Source: Thermoplasmata archaeon
Lineage (GTDB): Archaea > Thermoplasmatota > Thermoplasmata > Sysuiplasmatales > Sysuiplasmataceae
NCBI GenBank assembly: GCA_021817225.1
Contig: JAKAVR010000004.1
Coordinates: forward strand, 1-61,935
Reading direction: 5' to 3'
Length of the DNA: 61,935 bases
This document shows, piece after piece, positions 1,609 through 14,416 of the stretch. The position numbers were made by a program, and so were the translations under genes. The notes under the pieces are model-generated. The model saw only the letters and a program-made list of their open reading frames with translations. It had not been told where the DNA came from and searched no databases. How positions within the stretch are numbered: the first letter of the stretch is position 1; each line of letters starts with the position of its first letter.

Positions 1609-2430
1609 CTACGCTCCAGTCCGCATAGTCCTTCTTGCTGTCCTTGCCACGAGAATGAAAACTGCCAGCACCGCCACGGATATCACTGTGATAGCGAATC
1701 CCGAACCTGACGCGGCAAGAGAAACCGAGAGAACAACTATTGTGGCTGCGGCACCGACTGCAAGATGAAGCGCCGTTTGCTCCAGCCTGATTGAATTCAC
1801 GCCACCTGCTGCATGCATTATGAACAGGAAGAAGCCGGCAACTGCGAGGAGTAGAAGAAAGAGTATTTCGGGGGATATTCCGATGTTCATTGTCTGCAGC
1901 GGCAGGCCGGACTGGTACCCGCTCTCGAACAGGGAAGCTATTCCAGAGAGCTGAAGCGACCAGACGTCGATGTAGGCTGCAATCACAGGCACCGTGTGCA
2001 TCTGAGAGTAGCTGACAGTTGCAACTTCATCCAGCGTAATCCCTGTGCCGAGAAGGAACGCGCTCATCGCCTGGAAAGGCTCCCTTGAACGGAGTATTTC
2101 CATTCCGAATATGAAGGGAAGAGCAAACTCCGCCGACATGATTGCGGAGTATACCTCGGTCCCCCTTTGCTGGGCGCCGCCCCCTGTCGGCCCGATGGCA
2201 TAAAAGAGAACAGAGAGCATAAAAAGCATCTCGACGGCGAAATAGAATGGAACTTTCCTCCTGTCTGGCAGGGCCCTCGACACAAAGGGGACTGCAATGA
2301 AAGGGACGACGAGAAGGGGGTTCAGGCCAGGAGCAAAGAAGGGGACCGTGTATGCGAAGAGGGCAAAGAGAGGAAGAGCCACCAGGAGCCGGGATGTGTT
2401 CAGAAGGGTTCTGCCTTCAGTATCCGGCAT
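1609..2430 (-). CDS. hypothetical polytopic membrane protein of the MoxR/DUF58 cluster
   Basis: About 273 residues and mostly hydrophobic, with roughly seven predicted membrane spans. The start at 2430 is chosen because a GGGAGGT ribosome site lies a few bases upstream; the frame extends to 2502, but that extra stretch overlaps the DUF58 gene and looks non-membrane. It overlaps the end of the DUF58 gene by 14 bases and is the last gene of the minus-strand cluster. In related MoxR/DUF58 clusters the last genes are often membrane or transglutaminase-like proteins; I see no transglutaminase motif here. Confidence 0.75.
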   Translation of the reverse strand: MPDTEGRTLLNTSRLLVALPLFALFAYTVPFFAPGLNPLLVVPFIAVPFVSRALPDRRKVPFYFAVEMLFMLSVLFYAIGPTGGGAQQRGTEVYSAIMSAEFALPFIFGMEILRSREPFQAMSAFLLGTGITLDEVATVSYSQMHTVPVIAAYIDVWSLQLSGIASLFESGYQSGLPLQTMNIGISPEILFLLLLAVAGFFLFIMHAAGGVNSIRLEQTALHLAVGAAATIVVLSVSLAASGSGFAITVISVAVLAVFILVARTARRTMRTGA

Positions 2431-3724
2431 ATGAATACCTCCCTTCGAACCATACGGCCGCGAGGTCTGAAACAAGCGTCCTGGAGGAAGACAGCTTGGC
2501 ACGTACCCCGAGCCCGTTGAGCAGCCTTACGTTGTTTGACATCTGACTCCTCCTTCCGACTGTGACCATCCTCATCAGTGTGAAGCTGGCATTCTTCCCG
2601 GAGGAGTCGAAGAAGGTGGATGCCTCCGGGACTATAAGCCTCACCGAACGTCTTGAGAGAAGAGGCACAGACTCGCGGCTAATCGCCATGCCGTCGAAAG
2701 TCATCAGAGGCGAAATGACAACAGTAAGCGCTGACTTGCCGTACCTTTTTTTCAGCGCCCTGACAGACCCTGCCAGGTCAAACTGCCCGTCGGGTTCGGT
2801 CGACTTCAGGATCGCCTGCAGCTGCTTCGCCGATGATGCGACAGGTTCGGGAGCAACAAAGAAATTCCGTGTCGATGAATAAAGGAAGAAACCTACCCTG
2901 TCGCCCTGCCTGCAAAGTGCAAAAGATGCGCGGAGGGCACTTGATACCTCGTTGCAGTATATCCTGTCCAGCTGGCCGATGTTGGTTGATGAGCTATAGT
3001 CGATTACGAATATTGTATCCGTGTTTCTCTCGTCCTCCATCTCCTTGACATAGACATCATCACCACTGACCGTTCCGAACCTGTTCCATGCTATCCTTCT
3101 CGATTCATCGTGGACAGTGTAGGGCCTTATGCTGAGGAACTGGTAACCCTGGCCAGGGCGCGGCAGGCTGCCCGCCCCTGCGACGAATGTGTTGCTCCGC
3201 GTGGCCACGCCCCTCATCTCGGCCCTTTCGGCTATTATGGGAGGAATGGCAACCCGGTCCGTTACTGGCTTCAGTATCCTGAAGCGGCAGAGGCCAAACG
3301 GATCAGATGCGCTCAGCTCCAGCGGTCCTAGAGTGTGGCGGCCGAAGTAGGGGGAGGTGACCGAATACTCCTTGTATGCCTGCCCTCTGCCCCTGAAGAT
3401 TATGCTCCCGCTGCTCTCGCCCTGCGCCTCGAGGCCTTCCGAGAGCAAATCGGCATATTTGAAGACGAGAAGTCCCTGGCCGGTACCTGAAAACTCAAGT
3501 GCAACGTCGAACCAGCCCGCTTTCGCCGAAGGAACTATCCTTCTGCGTACCTGCAACGACTTGATTCGCTCCACTGTAACAGTATGAAAAATGACAACAT
3601 CTGCTGAAACAGTGAAGAAAAGAAGCAGCGAAAAAATCAGGAAGTAGCTGTATCCGAGCATAACTGCCTCGAATATGCCGAAAGTGAGCAGAAACAGCAG
3701 CGGGTAGGTGGACCACTTTATCAT
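2417..3724 (-). CDS. DUF58 family protein, membrane anchored
   Basis: A 435-residue DUF58 protein. Two hydrophobic helices occupy residues 7-48, followed by a beta-rich region (about 50-160), then the DUF58 signature around residues 195-235 with ESRRIAWNRFG and YVKEME, then a VWA-like strand FVIDYSSSTN at about 239-248 whose D-x-S-S-S resembles a metal-site loop. The start overlaps the MoxR stop by 4 bases (3721-3724), so it should be translated with the ATPase. MoxR plus DUF58 is a widespread pair thought to act as a chaperone-like or regulatory module; the target here may be the surface protein or membrane genes of the same cluster (inference). Confidence 0.92.
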   Translation of the reverse strand: MIKWSTYPLLFLLTFGIFEAVMLGYSYFLIFSLLLFFTVSADVVIFHTVTVERIKSLQVRRRIVPSAKAGWFDVALEFSGTGQGLLVFKYADLLSEGLEAQGESSGSIIFRGRGQAYKEYSVTSPYFGRHTLGPLELSASDPFGLCRFRILKPVTDRVAIPPIIAERAEMRGVATRSNTFVAGAGSLPRPGQGYQFLSIRPYTVHDESRRIAWNRFGTVSGDDVYVKEMEDERNTDTIFVIDYSSSTNIGQLDRIYCNEVSSALRASFALCRQGDRVGFFLYSSTRNFFVAPEPVASSAKQLQAILKSTEPDGQFDLAGSVRALKKRYGKSALTVVISPLMTFDGMAISRESVPLLSRRSVRLIVPEASTFFDSSGKNASFTLMRMVTVGRRSQMSNNVRLLNGLGVRAKLSSSRTLVSDLAAVWFEGRYSYAGY

Positions 3725-4692
3725 CTTGGAACTTTCACGTCCTTTATTATCCCGTTTATGACCGCATTCATCACCGCAAGTGGCTCGTTGTCGCTCTCCA
3801 GATGCATTTCAGGTTGAAGTATGAGCCTGTGGTTCAGCATCTCATATGCAATGAATTTCACGTCGTCAGGCAGGACATAATCTCTGCCGCACAGGAGCGC
3901 GTTTGCCCTTATGGCCCTGATGTACTTGACGCTCGTCCGCGGACTGGCACCTAGAAAGACTCCTTTTGCCTCCCTTGTATGCCTGATAAGGTCAACCACA
4001 TATTCGGACACCTCGTCCGATACATGGACATCCTTCACTGTCTGCCTCAGCGACCTGATCTCTTCGGCCGTGAAAAACTCGGGTCTCTCACCCGCATCCA
4101 GGGAGGTGCGAACTGCCTTGAGTTCATCTTCCCTTGTGGGGTAAGTCATCCTGTATCTGAACAGAAAACGATCCAGCAGCGCCTCCGCCAGCGGAAATGT
4201 GCCTTCCTGCTCTATCGGGTTCTGAGTGGCTATAACAAAAAAGGGCTCGGGCAGAGGATGCATCTGGCCGTTTGAGCTTACCTGCCTCTCCTCCATCGAC
4301 TCCAGAAGTGCTGACTGCACTTTCGGCGGCGTTCTGTTTATCTCGTCCGCAAGCAGTACATTTGTGAAAACAGGTCCTTCCCTGAATTCCATTTTCCTTG
4401 TCTGCAGATTCAGGACGTAGTTTCCCATCACATCGGTCGGAAGCATGTCCGGGGTGAACTGAATTCGCTTGAAGTCCAGGCCGAGATGTCTTGCAAACTC
4501 ATTTGCAAGCCTTGTCTTGGCCAGACCTGGGACACCCTCCAGAAGAATGTGGTTTTCGGTGAGGATCGAGATGAGCATGAACCTCACTATCCTTTCCGAC
4601 CCAATGACGCGCTTTCCGATCTCAAGCCGGAGCCGCAGCATCTTCTCATCCAGGCCTTTTCTCTCTCTTTCTTCCATGACCGCACCTGTCAT
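3721..4692 (-). CDS. MoxR family AAA+ ATPase
   Basis: A 323-residue AAA+ ATPase of the MoxR type. Walker A GVPGLAKT is at residues 53-60, Walker B LLADEINR at about 113-120, the sensor asparagine in IATQNP near 158, and the arginine-finger segment LAEALLDRF ends near 176. All catalytic positions are present, so it should be active. It sits directly before the DUF58 gene with a 4-base overlap and 6 bases after the small membrane gene. The start could also be Met6 at 4677. MoxR proteins commonly drive assembly or activation of partner complexes together with DUF58 or VWA proteins. Confidence 0.95.
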   Translation of the reverse strand: MTGAVMEERERKGLDEKMLRLRLEIGKRVIGSERIVRFMLISILTENHILLEGVPGLAKTRLANEFARHLGLDFKRIQFTPDMLPTDVMGNYVLNLQTRKMEFREGPVFTNVLLADEINRTPPKVQSALLESMEERQVSSNGQMHPLPEPFFVIATQNPIEQEGTFPLAEALLDRFLFRYRMTYPTREDELKAVRTSLDAGERPEFFTAEEIRSLRQTVKDVHVSDEVSEYVVDLIRHTREAKGVFLGASPRTSVKYIRAIRANALLCGRDYVLPDDVKFIAYEMLNHRLILQPEMHLESDNEPLAVMNAVINGIIKDVKVPR

Positions 4693-9857: not shown

Positions 9858-10823
9858 GTGTCGATTTTGCGTGAGACATCCGCACTCGGTGGAACCGTAG
9901 AAGATGCCGTGGATGCCATAAAGGCAAAGAACGGCATAGTAGGAAGGGAAAAGGAGCTCAGGCTGGCGCTGCTCTGCTCCTTGGCAGGGAGGCACACCCT
10001 CATAGAGGGTCCAGTGGGAGTCGGAAAGACGGTTCTGGCGACAGCCATTGCAGACCATCTCAACCGGCCCATATTCCGTGTTGACGGCGATGAGCGCTAC
10101 ACTGAACAGAAACTGACAGGGTGGTTTGATCCCCCCATCGTGATGAAGAAAGGCTACACAATGGATGCGTTCATAAGCGGGCCGCTGACATCGGCGATGG
10201 ACACAGGTGGCATCCTTTTCATCAACGAACTGAACAGGCTTAATGAGGGCGTGCAAAACGTTCTGCTGCCAGCAATGGACGAGGGAAAGATAGAGGTCCC
10301 GAGGATTGGCACCATGATGGCAAAAGAGGGTTTTCTGATCATTGCAACGCAGAACCCACGTGAATTTGTCGCCACGAGCTCCCTCTCAGAGGCATTGTCA
10401 GACAGGTTTGAGCTGCTGCCCCTCACTTATCAGTCGGAGGAGGAAGAAAGGCTCATAGTTGAGACGAGGACTGGAATCAAGGAGCAGCGTGTCATCAGGG
10501 CAGTCACATCCATCATCCGCGAAACAAGGGTGCACCCCTCGATTCGCCGCGGCGCATCAATCAGGGCGGCCACAGGAATGGCCCTCCTTCTTTCAAGAAT
10601 GGGAACCTCATTCGCGGCATTCCGGGAGGCCGCGTACATGTCAATACCCACCAGGGTCGAACTCCGTGAAGATGCCAAGAAGACGGTCTATGAGGTAATA
10701 GACGAAATACTTGAGAAGGTTCTGACAGATATTCCGATTGAGCAGCCCGCTCAGGTCAGAGCTGAGTCGAATGAAGAGCCTCCGGAGAAGAAGTCCGAGG
10801 AAAAAAAAACGATCAGGAAGTAG
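9858..10823 (+). CDS. MoxR/ChlI-like AAA+ ATPase (second copy)
   Basis: A 321-residue AAA+ protein. Walker A GPVGVGKT is at 51-58, the Walker B region reads ILFINELNRL at about 119-128 with Asn where Asp is usual, sensor asparagine lies in IATQNP near 166, and the arginine segment LSEALSDRF ends near 184. GTG start at 9858 follows a GGAGAG run. The tail (from about residue 290) becomes Pro/Glu/Lys rich and ends at TAG 10823 just after a run of nine A. A -1 slip there would join it to the VWA gene in the next frame, giving a ChlD-like arrangement of AAA domain, acidic linker and VWA domain. It likely works with that VWA protein as a chelatase- or MoxR-type complex. Confidence 0.9.
   Translation: MSILRETSALGGTVEDAVDAIKAKNGIVGREKELRLALLCSLAGRHTLIEGPVGVGKTVLATAIADHLNRPIFRVDGDERYTEQKLTGWFDPPIVMKKGYTMDAFISGPLTSAMDTGGILFINELNRLNEGVQNVLLPAMDEGKIEVPRIGTMMAKEGFLIIATQNPREFVATSSLSEALSDRFELLPLTYQSEEEERLIVETRTGIKEQRVIRAVTSIIRETRVHPSIRRGASIRAATGMALLLSRMGTSFAAFREAAYMSIPTRVELREDAKKTVYEVIDEILEKVLTDIPIEQPAQVRAESNEEPPEKKSEEKKTIRK
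10801..10810 (+). other. candidate -1 ribosomal frameshift site (A AAA AAA C)
   Basis: Nine A followed by C. In the MoxR2 frame the codons are GAA AAA AAA ACG, so an A-AAA-AAA slippery heptamer sits in register, 12 bases before the stop. After a -1 slip the reading continues AAC GAT CAG GAA GTA GAG through an acidic linker into the VWA gene. A sequencing error in the homopolymer (10 A instead of 9) would give the same fused frame. Confidence 0.45.
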
Positions 10824-10852
10824 AGAGTGAGCCTGACGATGCCCTGGACATA

Positions 10853-11719
10853 ATGCAACGGTTGAAGGGTATAGTCGATGTTCCCGGGGGAACCGGAGAG
10901 GAAATTATCTGGTCGATTGCAAAAAACTACCAGAAGATAAGGCTCAAGGCAAAGGACCCATCGCTTGTGAGGGCGGCAAAAAGGATTGCAATAAGGGCAA
11001 TAATAGACAGGACACTGAGGCAGCTCGGCCCCACCAAGATGCCTACGGTAAAAAGGCTTGTGGATTACAGGCCGGGCGTTGAAGGGGAGATTGAGATAGC
11101 CAGCACACTGGATAATATTGCTTCCCCCAGGGACATTCAGCCCGAGGAAATAGTGCTTGAGAGGAAAGAACTGAAACACATTGCATGCGTGCTTATGATC
11201 GATGCAAGCCTCTCAATGACAGGGGAGAAGCTCGCCGTTGCAACTAGCTCGATAGCTGTCCTGGCGCACAGGCTCAAGGGAATTGAGTACGCGGTGGTGC
11301 TCTTCGAAAACAAGGCAAACACAATAAAGAAGATGGAGAAGGATGCGGACATGGAAAAGCTCATTGGCGATCTCCTTGACCTGAACGCCATGGGATACAC
11401 CAACATAGAGGAGGGATTGAGGGCGGGCCTCAGGGAGCTCGAAAAAGCAAAGACTCCCAATAAGATAGGTGTAGTCGTCACAGACGGCAATTATACCATG
11501 GGCCACGATCCGAGGCAGCTTGCAGCATTGTTTCCGAAGCTGCACGTTATGATGACAACAGGACTGGATGCAAGGGACGACGTGTGCCAGGGAATGGCAA
11601 GCAATGGCAAGGGTGAGATGTACGAGATCAAGAATTACGAGGAAATGCCGAAGGTCCTGTACAGCCTGATCAAGACGTTCAACCTCAGACTGCACCAGAG
11701 GGGCGGAACAAACAGGTAG
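10853..11719 (+). CDS. VWA domain protein (ChlD/CoxE-like partner of MoxR)
   Basis: A 288-residue protein with a helical, basic N-terminal part and a VWA domain from about residue 108. The metal-site residues are visible: DASLSM at 117-122 (D-x-S-x-S), a Thr in GYTNIEEGL near 183, and VVTDGN near 208-213. The ATG at 10853 has no clear ribosome site, and the frame is open upstream back to the A9 run, encoding an acidic stretch (EVESEPDDALDI); it may therefore be made mainly as the C-terminal part of a frameshift fusion with the MoxR2 ATPase. AAA plus VWA is the architecture of metal chelatases and MoxR/VWA chaperones; no chelatase pathway genes are nearby. Confidence 0.88.
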   Translation: MQRLKGIVDVPGGTGEEIIWSIAKNYQKIRLKAKDPSLVRAAKRIAIRAIIDRTLRQLGPTKMPTVKRLVDYRPGVEGEIEIASTLDNIASPRDIQPEEIVLERKELKHIACVLMIDASLSMTGEKLAVATSSIAVLAHRLKGIEYAVVLFENKANTIKKMEKDADMEKLIGDLLDLNAMGYTNIEEGLRAGLRELEKAKTPNKIGVVVTDGNYTMGHDPRQLAALFPKLHVMMTTGLDARDDVCQGMASNGKGEMYEIKNYEEMPKVLYSLIKTFNLRLHQRGGTNR

Positions 11720-11782
11720 GCAGGCACCAGCCAACTGTTAAATAACCTCTGATGATTCTTTCAGGCCATAAAAGTGGTTGTT

Positions 11783-12823
11783 ATGGTCTACAGGGTTACT
11801 TTGATTCCGGGGGACGGCATAGGACCAGAAGTCACGCAGGCCGCAGTGAGGGTTCTCGAAGCGACTGGAGTGCGATTCGACTGGGAAGTGGTAGAGGCTG
11901 GACAGAAAGTAATTGCAGAAAAGGGGACTCCGCTTCCAGAGAGCGTCCTGGAGAGCCTGAGGAAGAACAAGGTGGGGCTCAAGGGCCCTCTGACGACGCC
12001 AATCGGCGGCGGCTTTAGGAGCGTAAATGTATCACTGAGGCAGATGCTCGATCTGTATGCAAGCGTCCGGCCGGCAAGGTCCATTGCAGGTGAGGGTACG
12101 CTGTATTCGGATGTGGACCTTGTTGTCGTGCGGGAGGCAACGGAGGAACTCTACTCGGGCGTGGAGCACTGGGTCGACAGGGATCATTCTGCCGCTGAGA
12201 CGATAGGCATTGTCACGAGAAAGGCATCCGAGCGGATTGTCAAATTCGCGTTTGAATATGCGCTCAAGGAGAAGAGGCACAAGGTCACGGCCGTCCACAA
12301 GGCCAATATTATGAAGTTCACAGGCGGCCTTTTCCAGGAAGTCGCGCAGAAGATCGCAAAGTCATACCCTTCGATACAGTTCGAAGAGAGGCTCGTCGAC
12401 AACATGGCCATGCAGCTTGTGAAGAAGCCCCAGGATTATGATGTCATTGTAACGACAAACCTGTTTGGTGACATACTCTCCGACCTGTGTTCTGGACTTG
12501 CTGGCGGGCTGGGTATAACACCCGGGGCCATTATAGGGGAGGATATGGCTTTGTTTGAACCGGTCCACGGTTCTGCCCCCAAATACGCGGGCCAGGATAA
12601 GGTAAACCCTGTTGCGACCATCCTTTCCGGAGAAATGATGCTGAAGTACCTAGGCGAGAGAGAGGCTGCTGAAAAAGTGTGGAATGCAGTCTACGAGACA
12701 ATAAAGGAAAAGAAGCATGTCACATACGACCTCGCTCTACCGGGCTACACATCGAGGCCTGTGCCGCCATCAAAGTGTTCGGAAATGACGGACGAGATTG
12801 TGAAGAGGGTCGAGGCAACCTGA
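11783..12823 (+). CDS. icd: isocitrate dehydrogenase-like enzyme (probably NADP-dependent)
   Basis: A 346-residue member of the isocitrate/isopropylmalate dehydrogenase family, oxidatively decarboxylating a 2-hydroxy tricarboxylate. The N terminus [12 protein letters not shown] is typical. The substrate loop reads [20 protein letters not shown], whose S-x-N-x-x-L-R fits isocitrate rather than isopropylmalate. The cofactor loop [15 protein letters not shown] matches the Lys-Tyr form seen in NADP enzymes. It is shorter than bacterial Icd (about 416) and near the short archaeal/mitochondrial type. ATG 11783 is chosen; a GTG lies 9 bases upstream. An AT-rich box (TTAAATAA near 11739-11746) precedes it. 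Homoisocitrate dehydrogenase is a less likely alternative. Confidence 0.88.
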
Positions 12824-14053
12824 TCAGAGGGCCAGCGTCTCTCCCTTCTTGGGCATGAACACCCGCCTTTCGCCAAGAGCGTCGGCAAGCGGCTGCCTTT
12901 TGTCGCCGTCCCCGTGAACCAGTATTACAGTCTCCGGATCACACCTGTTGACAAAATCAACGAGTTCCGAGTGGCCCGCGTGGGCAGAAAGGTCAAATCG
13001 CTTCACCTCGCACTTGACTGTCTCCAGTACCCCGTTTATTTCAAGTTGACCCGTATGCAGCAGCCTGTAGCCGTTTGATTCCTCAACCTGGAAGCCGCTC
13101 ATCAGCACGCCACTTTTTGTATCGTTTTTTATTTTTTCGATGTAGGTCAGCGCGGGTCCACCGTCCAGCATTCCGCTCGTGGTTACTATGACATCGGCCC
13201 TGTCGCTTCTGAACCTGTCTTCGTTGGTCTCCACCGCGAACGCCTTCAGGCAAGCCCTCTTCAAAGCGGAGTGGGAGGTCACATATTCCCTGGAATGGTT
13301 GTATATCCTGTTTATCTTGCGGCCCATGCCGTCGACCCAGATGTTGTAGTCTGTCTTCTCAAGTATCATCAGCAGCTCCTGGGTCCTTCCGACGGCAAAG
13401 GCAGGGAGTATGGCCTGACCGCCCCTGTCTACAATCTCCTTCACCTTGTCCAAGAGTTCGTTTTCTGTCTTCCTTCTGTCCGGATGGTCGCGCCCGGAAT
13501 ATGTTGATTCTATGACAAGGATGTCGGCCTTTGGCACGATGGCCCCAGGTACGAGCCGCGTCTCGGCGGTGTGTATGTCACCGGTGAAAAGCACTGTGTT
13601 CTCGCCCTTGAATTCGAACATTGCCGCTCCCGGAATATGGCCCGCCTGCCTCGGTATGAATTCGGTGCCTCCGATGTCAAACCCGTTATCGAACCGTTCG
13701 ACCGAGAAGAGCGACATCGTGTCCTCCACATCTCCGTTCTCGTACGGTTCCATGTATCCTTCCATCTTCGCGACCTTGAGGCTGTCGAGCATGAGCAGTT
13801 TTCCAACTTCCTTCGTCGGATAAGTTCCGTGAACCGGAACCTGGTATCTTGACGCTATCCACGGTATCATCCCGGAGTGATCCACATGCGCGTGAGTCAG
13901 TATGATCTCGTCAACAGGCGGTGCCTGAAGCGGATAAACTGGCGGATCCTTCGGTATCAGGCCATAGTCGAACATTACCTTTCCAAAGCCGTCTTCAACA
14001 GTAACTGCGAGTCCGCCGACTTCATCGGCCCCGCCATAAAATGTAAACTTCAA
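12824..14053 (-). CDS. beta-CASP metallo-beta-lactamase ribonuclease (aCPSF2-like)
   Basis: A 409-residue metallo-beta-lactamase/beta-CASP nuclease. Motif 2 THAHVDHSG is at residues 53-61, a GH-containing motif (AGHIPGAAMFEF) near 137, FTGDIHT near 157, and beta-CASP motifs in VIESTYSGRDH, PAFAVGRTQE and the terminal SAHAGHSEL and VHGDG. Absence of N-terminal KH domains separates it from aCPSF1; the HAHVDHSG form fits CPSF-like enzymes better than RNase J. It probably processes mRNA 3' ends or degrades RNA. It ends one base after the convergent dehydrogenase. Confidence 0.9.
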   Translation of the reverse strand: MKFTFYGGADEVGGLAVTVEDGFGKVMFDYGLIPKDPPVYPLQAPPVDEIILTHAHVDHSGMIPWIASRYQVPVHGTYPTKEVGKLLMLDSLKVAKMEGYMEPYENGDVEDTMSLFSVERFDNGFDIGGTEFIPRQAGHIPGAAMFEFKGENTVLFTGDIHTAETRLVPGAIVPKADILVIESTYSGRDHPDRRKTENELLDKVKEIVDRGGQAILPAFAVGRTQELLMILEKTDYNIWVDGMGRKINRIYNHSREYVTSHSALKRACLKAFAVETNEDRFRSDRADVIVTTSGMLDGGPALTYIEKIKNDTKSGVLMSGFQVEESNGYRLLHTGQLEINGVLETVKCEVKRFDLSAHAGHSELVDFVNRCDPETVILVHGDGDKRQPLADALGERRVFMPKKGETLAL

Positions 14054-14416
14054 TCCCTGTCACCCATCTGATAATCTGTGCGATACAACAGAACACTAAT
14101 ATCTATTTTCAGTGAATGCTTAGACAAATCGGTATATGTACTTTTTGCAAAGGAAGCCATGGAGTCGCGACGGATGTGAACATCGGATTTTCCTTCAAAG
14201 CCGCTGGAGAATACCTCCCGACTGATTCAGAAGGTGGCTGTACGAAGCACGACGGGAGTCAACAAAAGATAAGCCAAAATGGCGCCAGGAGACTCAATTG
14301 AAGTTTGCATGCGAATACATTTCGCCAGTGACGAGTCGCGGTCATGCCGGTTGGAATTCATTTAACACAACGAAACAACATCCACAGAAAAGTGCATATA
14401 TACCGTATCCTTATAA
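14054..14416. other. intergenic stretch before the peptide transporter operon
   Basis: No convincing gene. A 61-codon frame at 14116-14301 lacks any family resemblance and has no ribosome site. The right end carries the operon promoter. Confidence 0.5.
14393..14402 (+). promoter_or_regulatory. TATA-like box of the peptide ABC transporter operon
   Basis: GCATATATAC lies 30-40 bases before the ATG at 14432, the spacing expected for a short-leader archaeal transcript. The GTG at 14417 would lie before or at the transcription start, so ATG 14432 is preferred. Confidence 0.5.

Follow-up and report, generated by a model that had tools for sequence, protein, structure and literature searches.

The locus described here raises the question of whether two adjoining genes in different reading frames, one for an AAA+ ATPase and one for a VWA protein, encode two separate proteins or are joined by a shift of frame at a run of nine A. 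The window, a stretch of 61,935 nucleotides, comes from a Thermoplasmata archaeon, an acid-loving relative of Candidatus Sysuiplasma in the order Candidatus Sysuiplasmatales, and its nearest named records are Thermoplasmata metagenome-assembled genomes (MAGs) including that of Candidatus Sysuiplasma superficiale. From sequence comparison, we conclude that the cell very probably reads this gene pair in two ways, as an AAA motor alone or as the same motor fused to the VWA domain.

The gene pair and its proposed slip site

The first gene (9867..10823; all features are on the forward strand) encodes a MoxR/NorQ-type AAA+ ATPase of 318 amino acids that ends in EEKKTIRK, has intact Walker A and B motifs and matches the Pfam models AAA_5 (79.8 bits) and AAA_3 above cut-off. 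A start at GTG 9858 had been assigned in the first-pass annotation, but TTG 9867 is probably the start instead, as stop codons interrupt the frame a short way upstream in relatives, several of which have Shine-Dalgarno (SD)-like motifs before the equivalent codon. In the window the SD-like GAGGTG lies 6 bases ahead of TTG 9867, and this or a similar motif precedes the AAA start in most relatives within the window's own family (f1; 8 genomes in 2 genera). The second ORF (10853..11719) encodes 288 amino acids from its ATG, scores 40.2 bits against PF00092, carries a MIDAS motif (DxSxS) as DASLS, invariant among the relatives, and would form the C-terminal half of the predicted fusion. We located the gene pair at 8 loci, distributed over 7 f1 genomes; the eighth genome of the family is 69% complete. 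The VWA ATG is retained at all of these loci and is the only start codon in the -1 frame that they share. No SD-like site precedes it at a useful spacing in the window, as had been claimed, and none is consistent across the f1 loci.

One f1 genome (G006) has a second copy of the gene pair on a 4.5-kb contig (G006:C59; L017/L042), which was excluded from the statistics. This copy is almost identical to that of species G005 and is probably bin contamination (6%).

The run between the two genes consists of exactly nine A (A9; 10801..10809), as first described. It is read in the 0 frame as GAA AAA AAA ACG, with the heptamer A_AAA_AAA (10802-10808) in 0-frame register, and the AAA gene ends GAA AAA AAA ACG ATC AGG AAG TAG, its stop lying at 10821..10823. 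The VWA ORF lies in the -1 frame with respect to the AAA gene, and this frame stays open between 10775 and 11716, which agrees with the earlier claim that this frame runs into the VWA gene without a stop; it reads GKK, then the linker NDQEVESEPDDALDI (10808..10852), then the initial M of the VWA ORF. A ribosome changing frame here would make a predicted trans-frame product of 617 amino acids (9867..11719) with the order AAA-linker-VWA and a predicted junction peptide of ...SEEKKNDQEVESEPDDALDIMQR.

All 8 loci have this X_XXY_YYZ-type slip site (A_AAA_AAA) in register ahead of the 0-frame stop, with the -1 frame open. The A9 run lies within a 15-base putative frameshift signal, GAAAAAAAAACGATC (10800..10814), which is identical at all 8 loci (7 genomes, 2 genera), and the linker just upstream of it has diverged. 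The 0-frame stop always falls 21 bases past the G of GAAAAAAAAACGATC, even though the stop codon itself varies (TAG at three loci, including this one, TGA at four and TAA at one). The distance from the opening of the -1 frame to the site is only 1-34 bases, which forces any shift to lie near A9. In a codon alignment of 7 sequences (1,941 columns), the signal is the longest invariant run of the gene pair and the next longest is 5 bases. A single codon is kept at only 23 of 348 degenerate codons for invariant residues (7%) in the same alignment, and AAA is the sole Lys codon in just two of its 19 invariant Lys columns, those of the slip site. The gene pair prefers AAG for Lys, and outside the site AAA-AAA writes just 1 of 25 KK pairs. 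By these comparisons the site is conserved beyond what the protein needs.

The DNA between the site and the ATG gives a second line of evidence. Pairwise differences in this stretch fall mainly at third positions of the -1 frame (0.24, 0.19 and 0.55 at the first, second and third positions vs 0.13, 0.08 and 0.54 in VWA itself), so that it evolves as -1-frame coding sequence in a pattern like that of VWA. The comparison thus establishes the coding character of the linker along with the conserved site, the frames and the position of the stop. Since the linker precedes the one start codon shared by every locus, reading it would require entry from the AAA frame. The -1 junction and the two products proposed in the first-pass annotation are thus supported by the retention of A9 and of the stop position at all 8 loci and by the coding linker, as well as by the single-ORF sister family described below. 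We infer that a slip takes place here; conserved across two genera and with both products complete, the frameshift looks used rather than tolerated.

The A9 run by itself is unremarkable in 62 kb (one vs 0.49 expected in shuffles). Three isolated A9 runs and no A10 were found on both strands of the window's 1.97-Mb genome, and neither of the other two A9 runs lies at a transition between two long ORFs. The 8 f1 genomes together have 27 isolated A9 runs, 8 of which are the AAA/VWA site, while none of the remaining 19 joins two long ORFs.

Some of these other runs have settings of their own. In the window's genome, one is a sense-strand T9 near the end of a transposase-like ORF of 107 amino acids (L044 at about 1501; G000:C34:31976-31986), and may mark an insertion sequence that has decayed or shifted frame. 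A pair of A9 runs separated by 46 bases (L088 at 1501 and 1547; G007:C179) lies in an ORF resembling CobQ (cobyric acid synthase) that ends soon after, and this break may point to a pseudogene, a misassembly or a further slip site. An A9 run conserved in two species (L072/L079 at about 1501; G001 and G003) immediately precedes the coding portion of an ORF for a KaiC-like ATPase, where it adjoins a TATA-like TTAAATA and is perhaps part of a promoter.

Family identity and related gene layouts

The combined product had been likened to ChlD-type chelatase subunits. The order of AAA, linker and VWA does match, but the protein is not a member of the ChlD family and the likeness is one of layout only. 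The AAA half scores 42.7 and 38 bits against the ChlD/BchD-cobaltochelatase models TIGR02442 and TIGR02031 (cut-offs 779 and 500), the VWA half matches neither, and the fused relatives in another family of the class (f3) reach up to 66 bits in the chelatase models, again below the cut-offs, whereas genuine chelatase-type proteins from elsewhere in the class reach about 430-820 bits. A search for CobN/ChlH (PF02514) was negative in all 8 f1 genomes, with positive controls. Together with the Walker A motif (GPVGVGKT here, not GERGTAKS), these scores and the lack of CobN/ChlH rule out chlD membership. A tree including the chelatases was uninformative about the joins, a saturated branch separating the groups.

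The best NCBIfam scores of the AAA half are to GvpN (73 bits) and MadB (67 bits), both far below the cut-offs. Its PDB sequence matches are midasin (top), NorQ, the MoxR-like ATPase 2r44 and CbbQ, and a fold search with its predicted structure (pLDDT 62.5, moderate) was led by 2r44, NorQ and CbbQ, with ChlI at rank 29. The VWA half gave no real match in a PDB sequence search, and its structural model (pLDDT 46) was too poor for use. The protein probably works as a MoxR-type chaperone on a client that may depend on a metal.

In f3 the same two domains, in the same layout, are encoded by one ORF of about 610-670 amino acids (13 genomes), whose VWA domain is 42-46% identical to that of the window. 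We also considered a slip site in these fused ORFs and rejected it, as no A run of at least 6 was found in the 7 linkers scanned. The two families are sister clades among the rows sampled (support 98/97 and 99/96), so the frameshifted form sits, by this phylogeny, next to a naturally fused version whose parts follow the same order. A two-gene layout is found in a more distant archaeon (G195, family f29) and on two Rhodococcus plasmids, which carry MoxR and vWA genes. The AAA and VWA ORFs of G195 (L054:7683-9538) overlap by 109 bases in different frames, and we considered them as a second case of frameshifting; we rejected this since the VWA ORF has its own SD-like GAGGT before GTG/ATG. The comparison of homologs suggested in the first-pass annotation yields a conserved A9 at all f1 loci, a fused ORF in f3 and two genes in G195 and Rhodococcus. 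Three layouts (two genes, frameshift and single fused ORF) among related genes of one archaeal class make the idea directly testable.

Gene neighborhoods of f1 and f3 gave no lead on a target or client protein. Downstream of the f1 gene pair (11756-14059 in the window) lie an isocitrate/isopropylmalate-type (Iso_dh-family) dehydrogenase and a beta-CASP metallo-nuclease at all 6 loci compared, and the f3 neighbors differ from these. An aminotransferase class III gene was observed downstream of the f3 AAA-VWA ORF at four loci (L049:5283-6737; homologs in L047, L048 and L050), either close by or a few genes off. About 5 kb ahead of the frameshift gene, the window has a canonical MoxR gene (AAA_3, 208 bits) and two DUF58 genes (1-1088, 2420-3721 and 3721-4692); in genus g2 a MoxR-DUF58 operon lies directly upstream of the frameshift gene in the same direction.

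Ribosome, polymerase or separate starts

We consider it probable that the site is a conserved programmed -1 ribosomal frameshift at GA_A-AAA-AAA-A that yields both AAA (318 amino acids) and AAA-VWA (617 amino acids). Translation of the AAA+ gene would begin at TTG 9867 and, on GA_A-AAA-AAA-ACG, two Lys-tRNAs would slip back by one base in tandem and regain perfect pairing. Non-slipping ribosomes would stop four codons on and release the AAA+ ATPase alone, while those that slip would pass through the acidic linker into VWA. For chelatase cassettes in E. coli reporters, shifting was 63% with 11 A, 40% with 9 A and 10% with 7 A (PMC3711429). We count the 40% of the 9-A cassette and the f3 fusion in 13 genomes in favor of ribosomal frameshifting, together with the conserved signal and stop position, the coding pattern of the linker, the distribution of SD-like sites and the settings of the 27 A9 runs.

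A candidate RNA structure downstream of the site (10815..10900) is unusually stable. The 90 bases after the site have the lowest mean fold energy of 132 overlapping windows along VWA (-26.8 vs -20.4 +/- 3.3 kcal/mol, about 1.9 SD), which is only suggestive of a stimulator. We found no conserved stem-loop at the usual spacing of 5-9 bases after the site, and the pairing is not conserved. The structure predicted by RNAalifold is weak and mostly non-covarying, and strong hairpins in two relatives (G002 and G004) start far downstream and are not shared; neither supports a conserved stem-loop stimulator.

The main rival to ribosomal frameshifting is programmed transcriptional slippage, which we hold to be rather unlikely. 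RNA polymerase would stutter on A9 so that some mRNAs, with 10 (or 7) A, would encode AAA-VWA in one frame and be read normally, with the same proteins as the outcome. Slippage on runs of this length is exploited or avoided by many bacteria, Thermus dnaX (PMC1088944) being one example, and such runs are rare in the f1 genomes; the absence of a conserved RNA stimulator would also fit. All nine A are invariant, beyond the seven of the heptamer, but the two extra A are accounted for by a conserved Glu codon and by the Asn codon of the linker. The CGATC past the run is invariant too and would be needless for a slipping polymerase, which tilts the balance toward the ribosome even if coding in two frames partly explains it. 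Nor did a non-exhaustive literature search find an archaeal case of such slippage. We infer that the ribosome is the agent.

Far less probable is that two separate proteins are made: ribosomes that terminate at the TAG would reinitiate 29 bases on, at ATG 10853, to make VWA, and A9 would be incidental or part of a Lys-rich tail. Distant relatives do have two genes, with an SD-like site in G195, and the retention of the ATG at all 8 loci makes some separate VWA possible. The f1 loci, however, have no consistent SD at this ATG, the 13 codons ahead of it evolve as -1-frame coding sequence, and AAA AAA is invariant although the genes prefer AAG. A sequencing or assembly error, with a true run of ten A and one fused gene as in f3, was the alternative raised in the first-pass annotation; homopolymer errors are common, but it is ruled out for practical purposes by the count of exactly nine A at every one of the 8 loci, which come from 7 separate assemblies (with contig names that look like those of short-read assemblies), by the 0-frame stop kept at the same place and by the rarity of A9.

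Comparison with known systems and meaning

The same trick is known from the fs-chlD chelatase genes, in which a -1 shift on a stretch of A (A_AAA_AAA, within 7-11 A) likewise connects AAA and VWA ORFs to yield AAA alone and AAA-VWA, and which also have fused homologs (PMC3711429, PMC9227772). The chelatase frameshift cluster has predicted archaeal members (PMC3711429; PMC5009743), with cases reported in Methanocaldococcus and Methanococcus, and fs-chlD also occurs in species without CobN/ChlH (PMC9227772). The family described here is a different one, with a NorQ/GvpN-like AAA domain, no CobN/ChlH, and TIGR02442 scores of 43-66 bits in the window and its relatives. A literature search, with subscription journals mostly outside its scope, found nothing relevant on a MoxR-VWA frameshift.

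A pairing of AAA with a VWA partner that has an intact MIDAS is also found in NorQ/NorD, CbbQ/CbbO and other MoxR AAA+/VWA pairs (PMC9976466, PMC13036017), and NorQ and CbbQ are, apart from midasin, the nearest AAA relatives with solved structures. Those pairs are separately started genes, whereas here the VWA domain would be joined by frameshifting and tethered to an AAA subunit. Midasin/Rea1 similarly combines AAA domains with a MIDAS-bearing VWA on a single polypeptide, but it is a giant eukaryotic protein with six AAA domains and no frameshift.

Among cellular archaeal genes, a 2021 review lists one demonstrated -1 frameshift, that of Saccharolobus solfataricus fucA1, with further cases unconfirmed (PMC8211752). 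The fucA1 slip site is also A-rich (A_AAA_AAT), but the shift occurs in two strains of a single species, relatives having the gene intact, whereas the site described here is kept across two genera and both of its products are complete domains. If RNA polymerase rather than the ribosome slips at A9, the site would instead represent programmed transcriptional slippage in archaea.

The NorQ hexamer binds one NorD (PMC9976466), and the VWA domain of NorD puts a loop into the ring pore (PMC13036017). By analogy, the likely purpose of the shift, at whatever rate it would occur, is to hold plain AAA and VWA-tethered subunits at a fixed ratio within one hexamer, and such a ratio would build rings with few tethered arms. 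We think it likely that this is a second, independently evolved AAA/VWA frameshift family, archaeal and outside the chelatases, in which a conserved A9 sets the number of NorQ-like ring subunits with a tethered VWA arm. Frameshifting as a way to attach a VWA arm to an AAA motor may thus have arisen more than once, in fs-chlD and here, and this repeated origin would point to a shared need for a ring in which only some subunits bear the arm.
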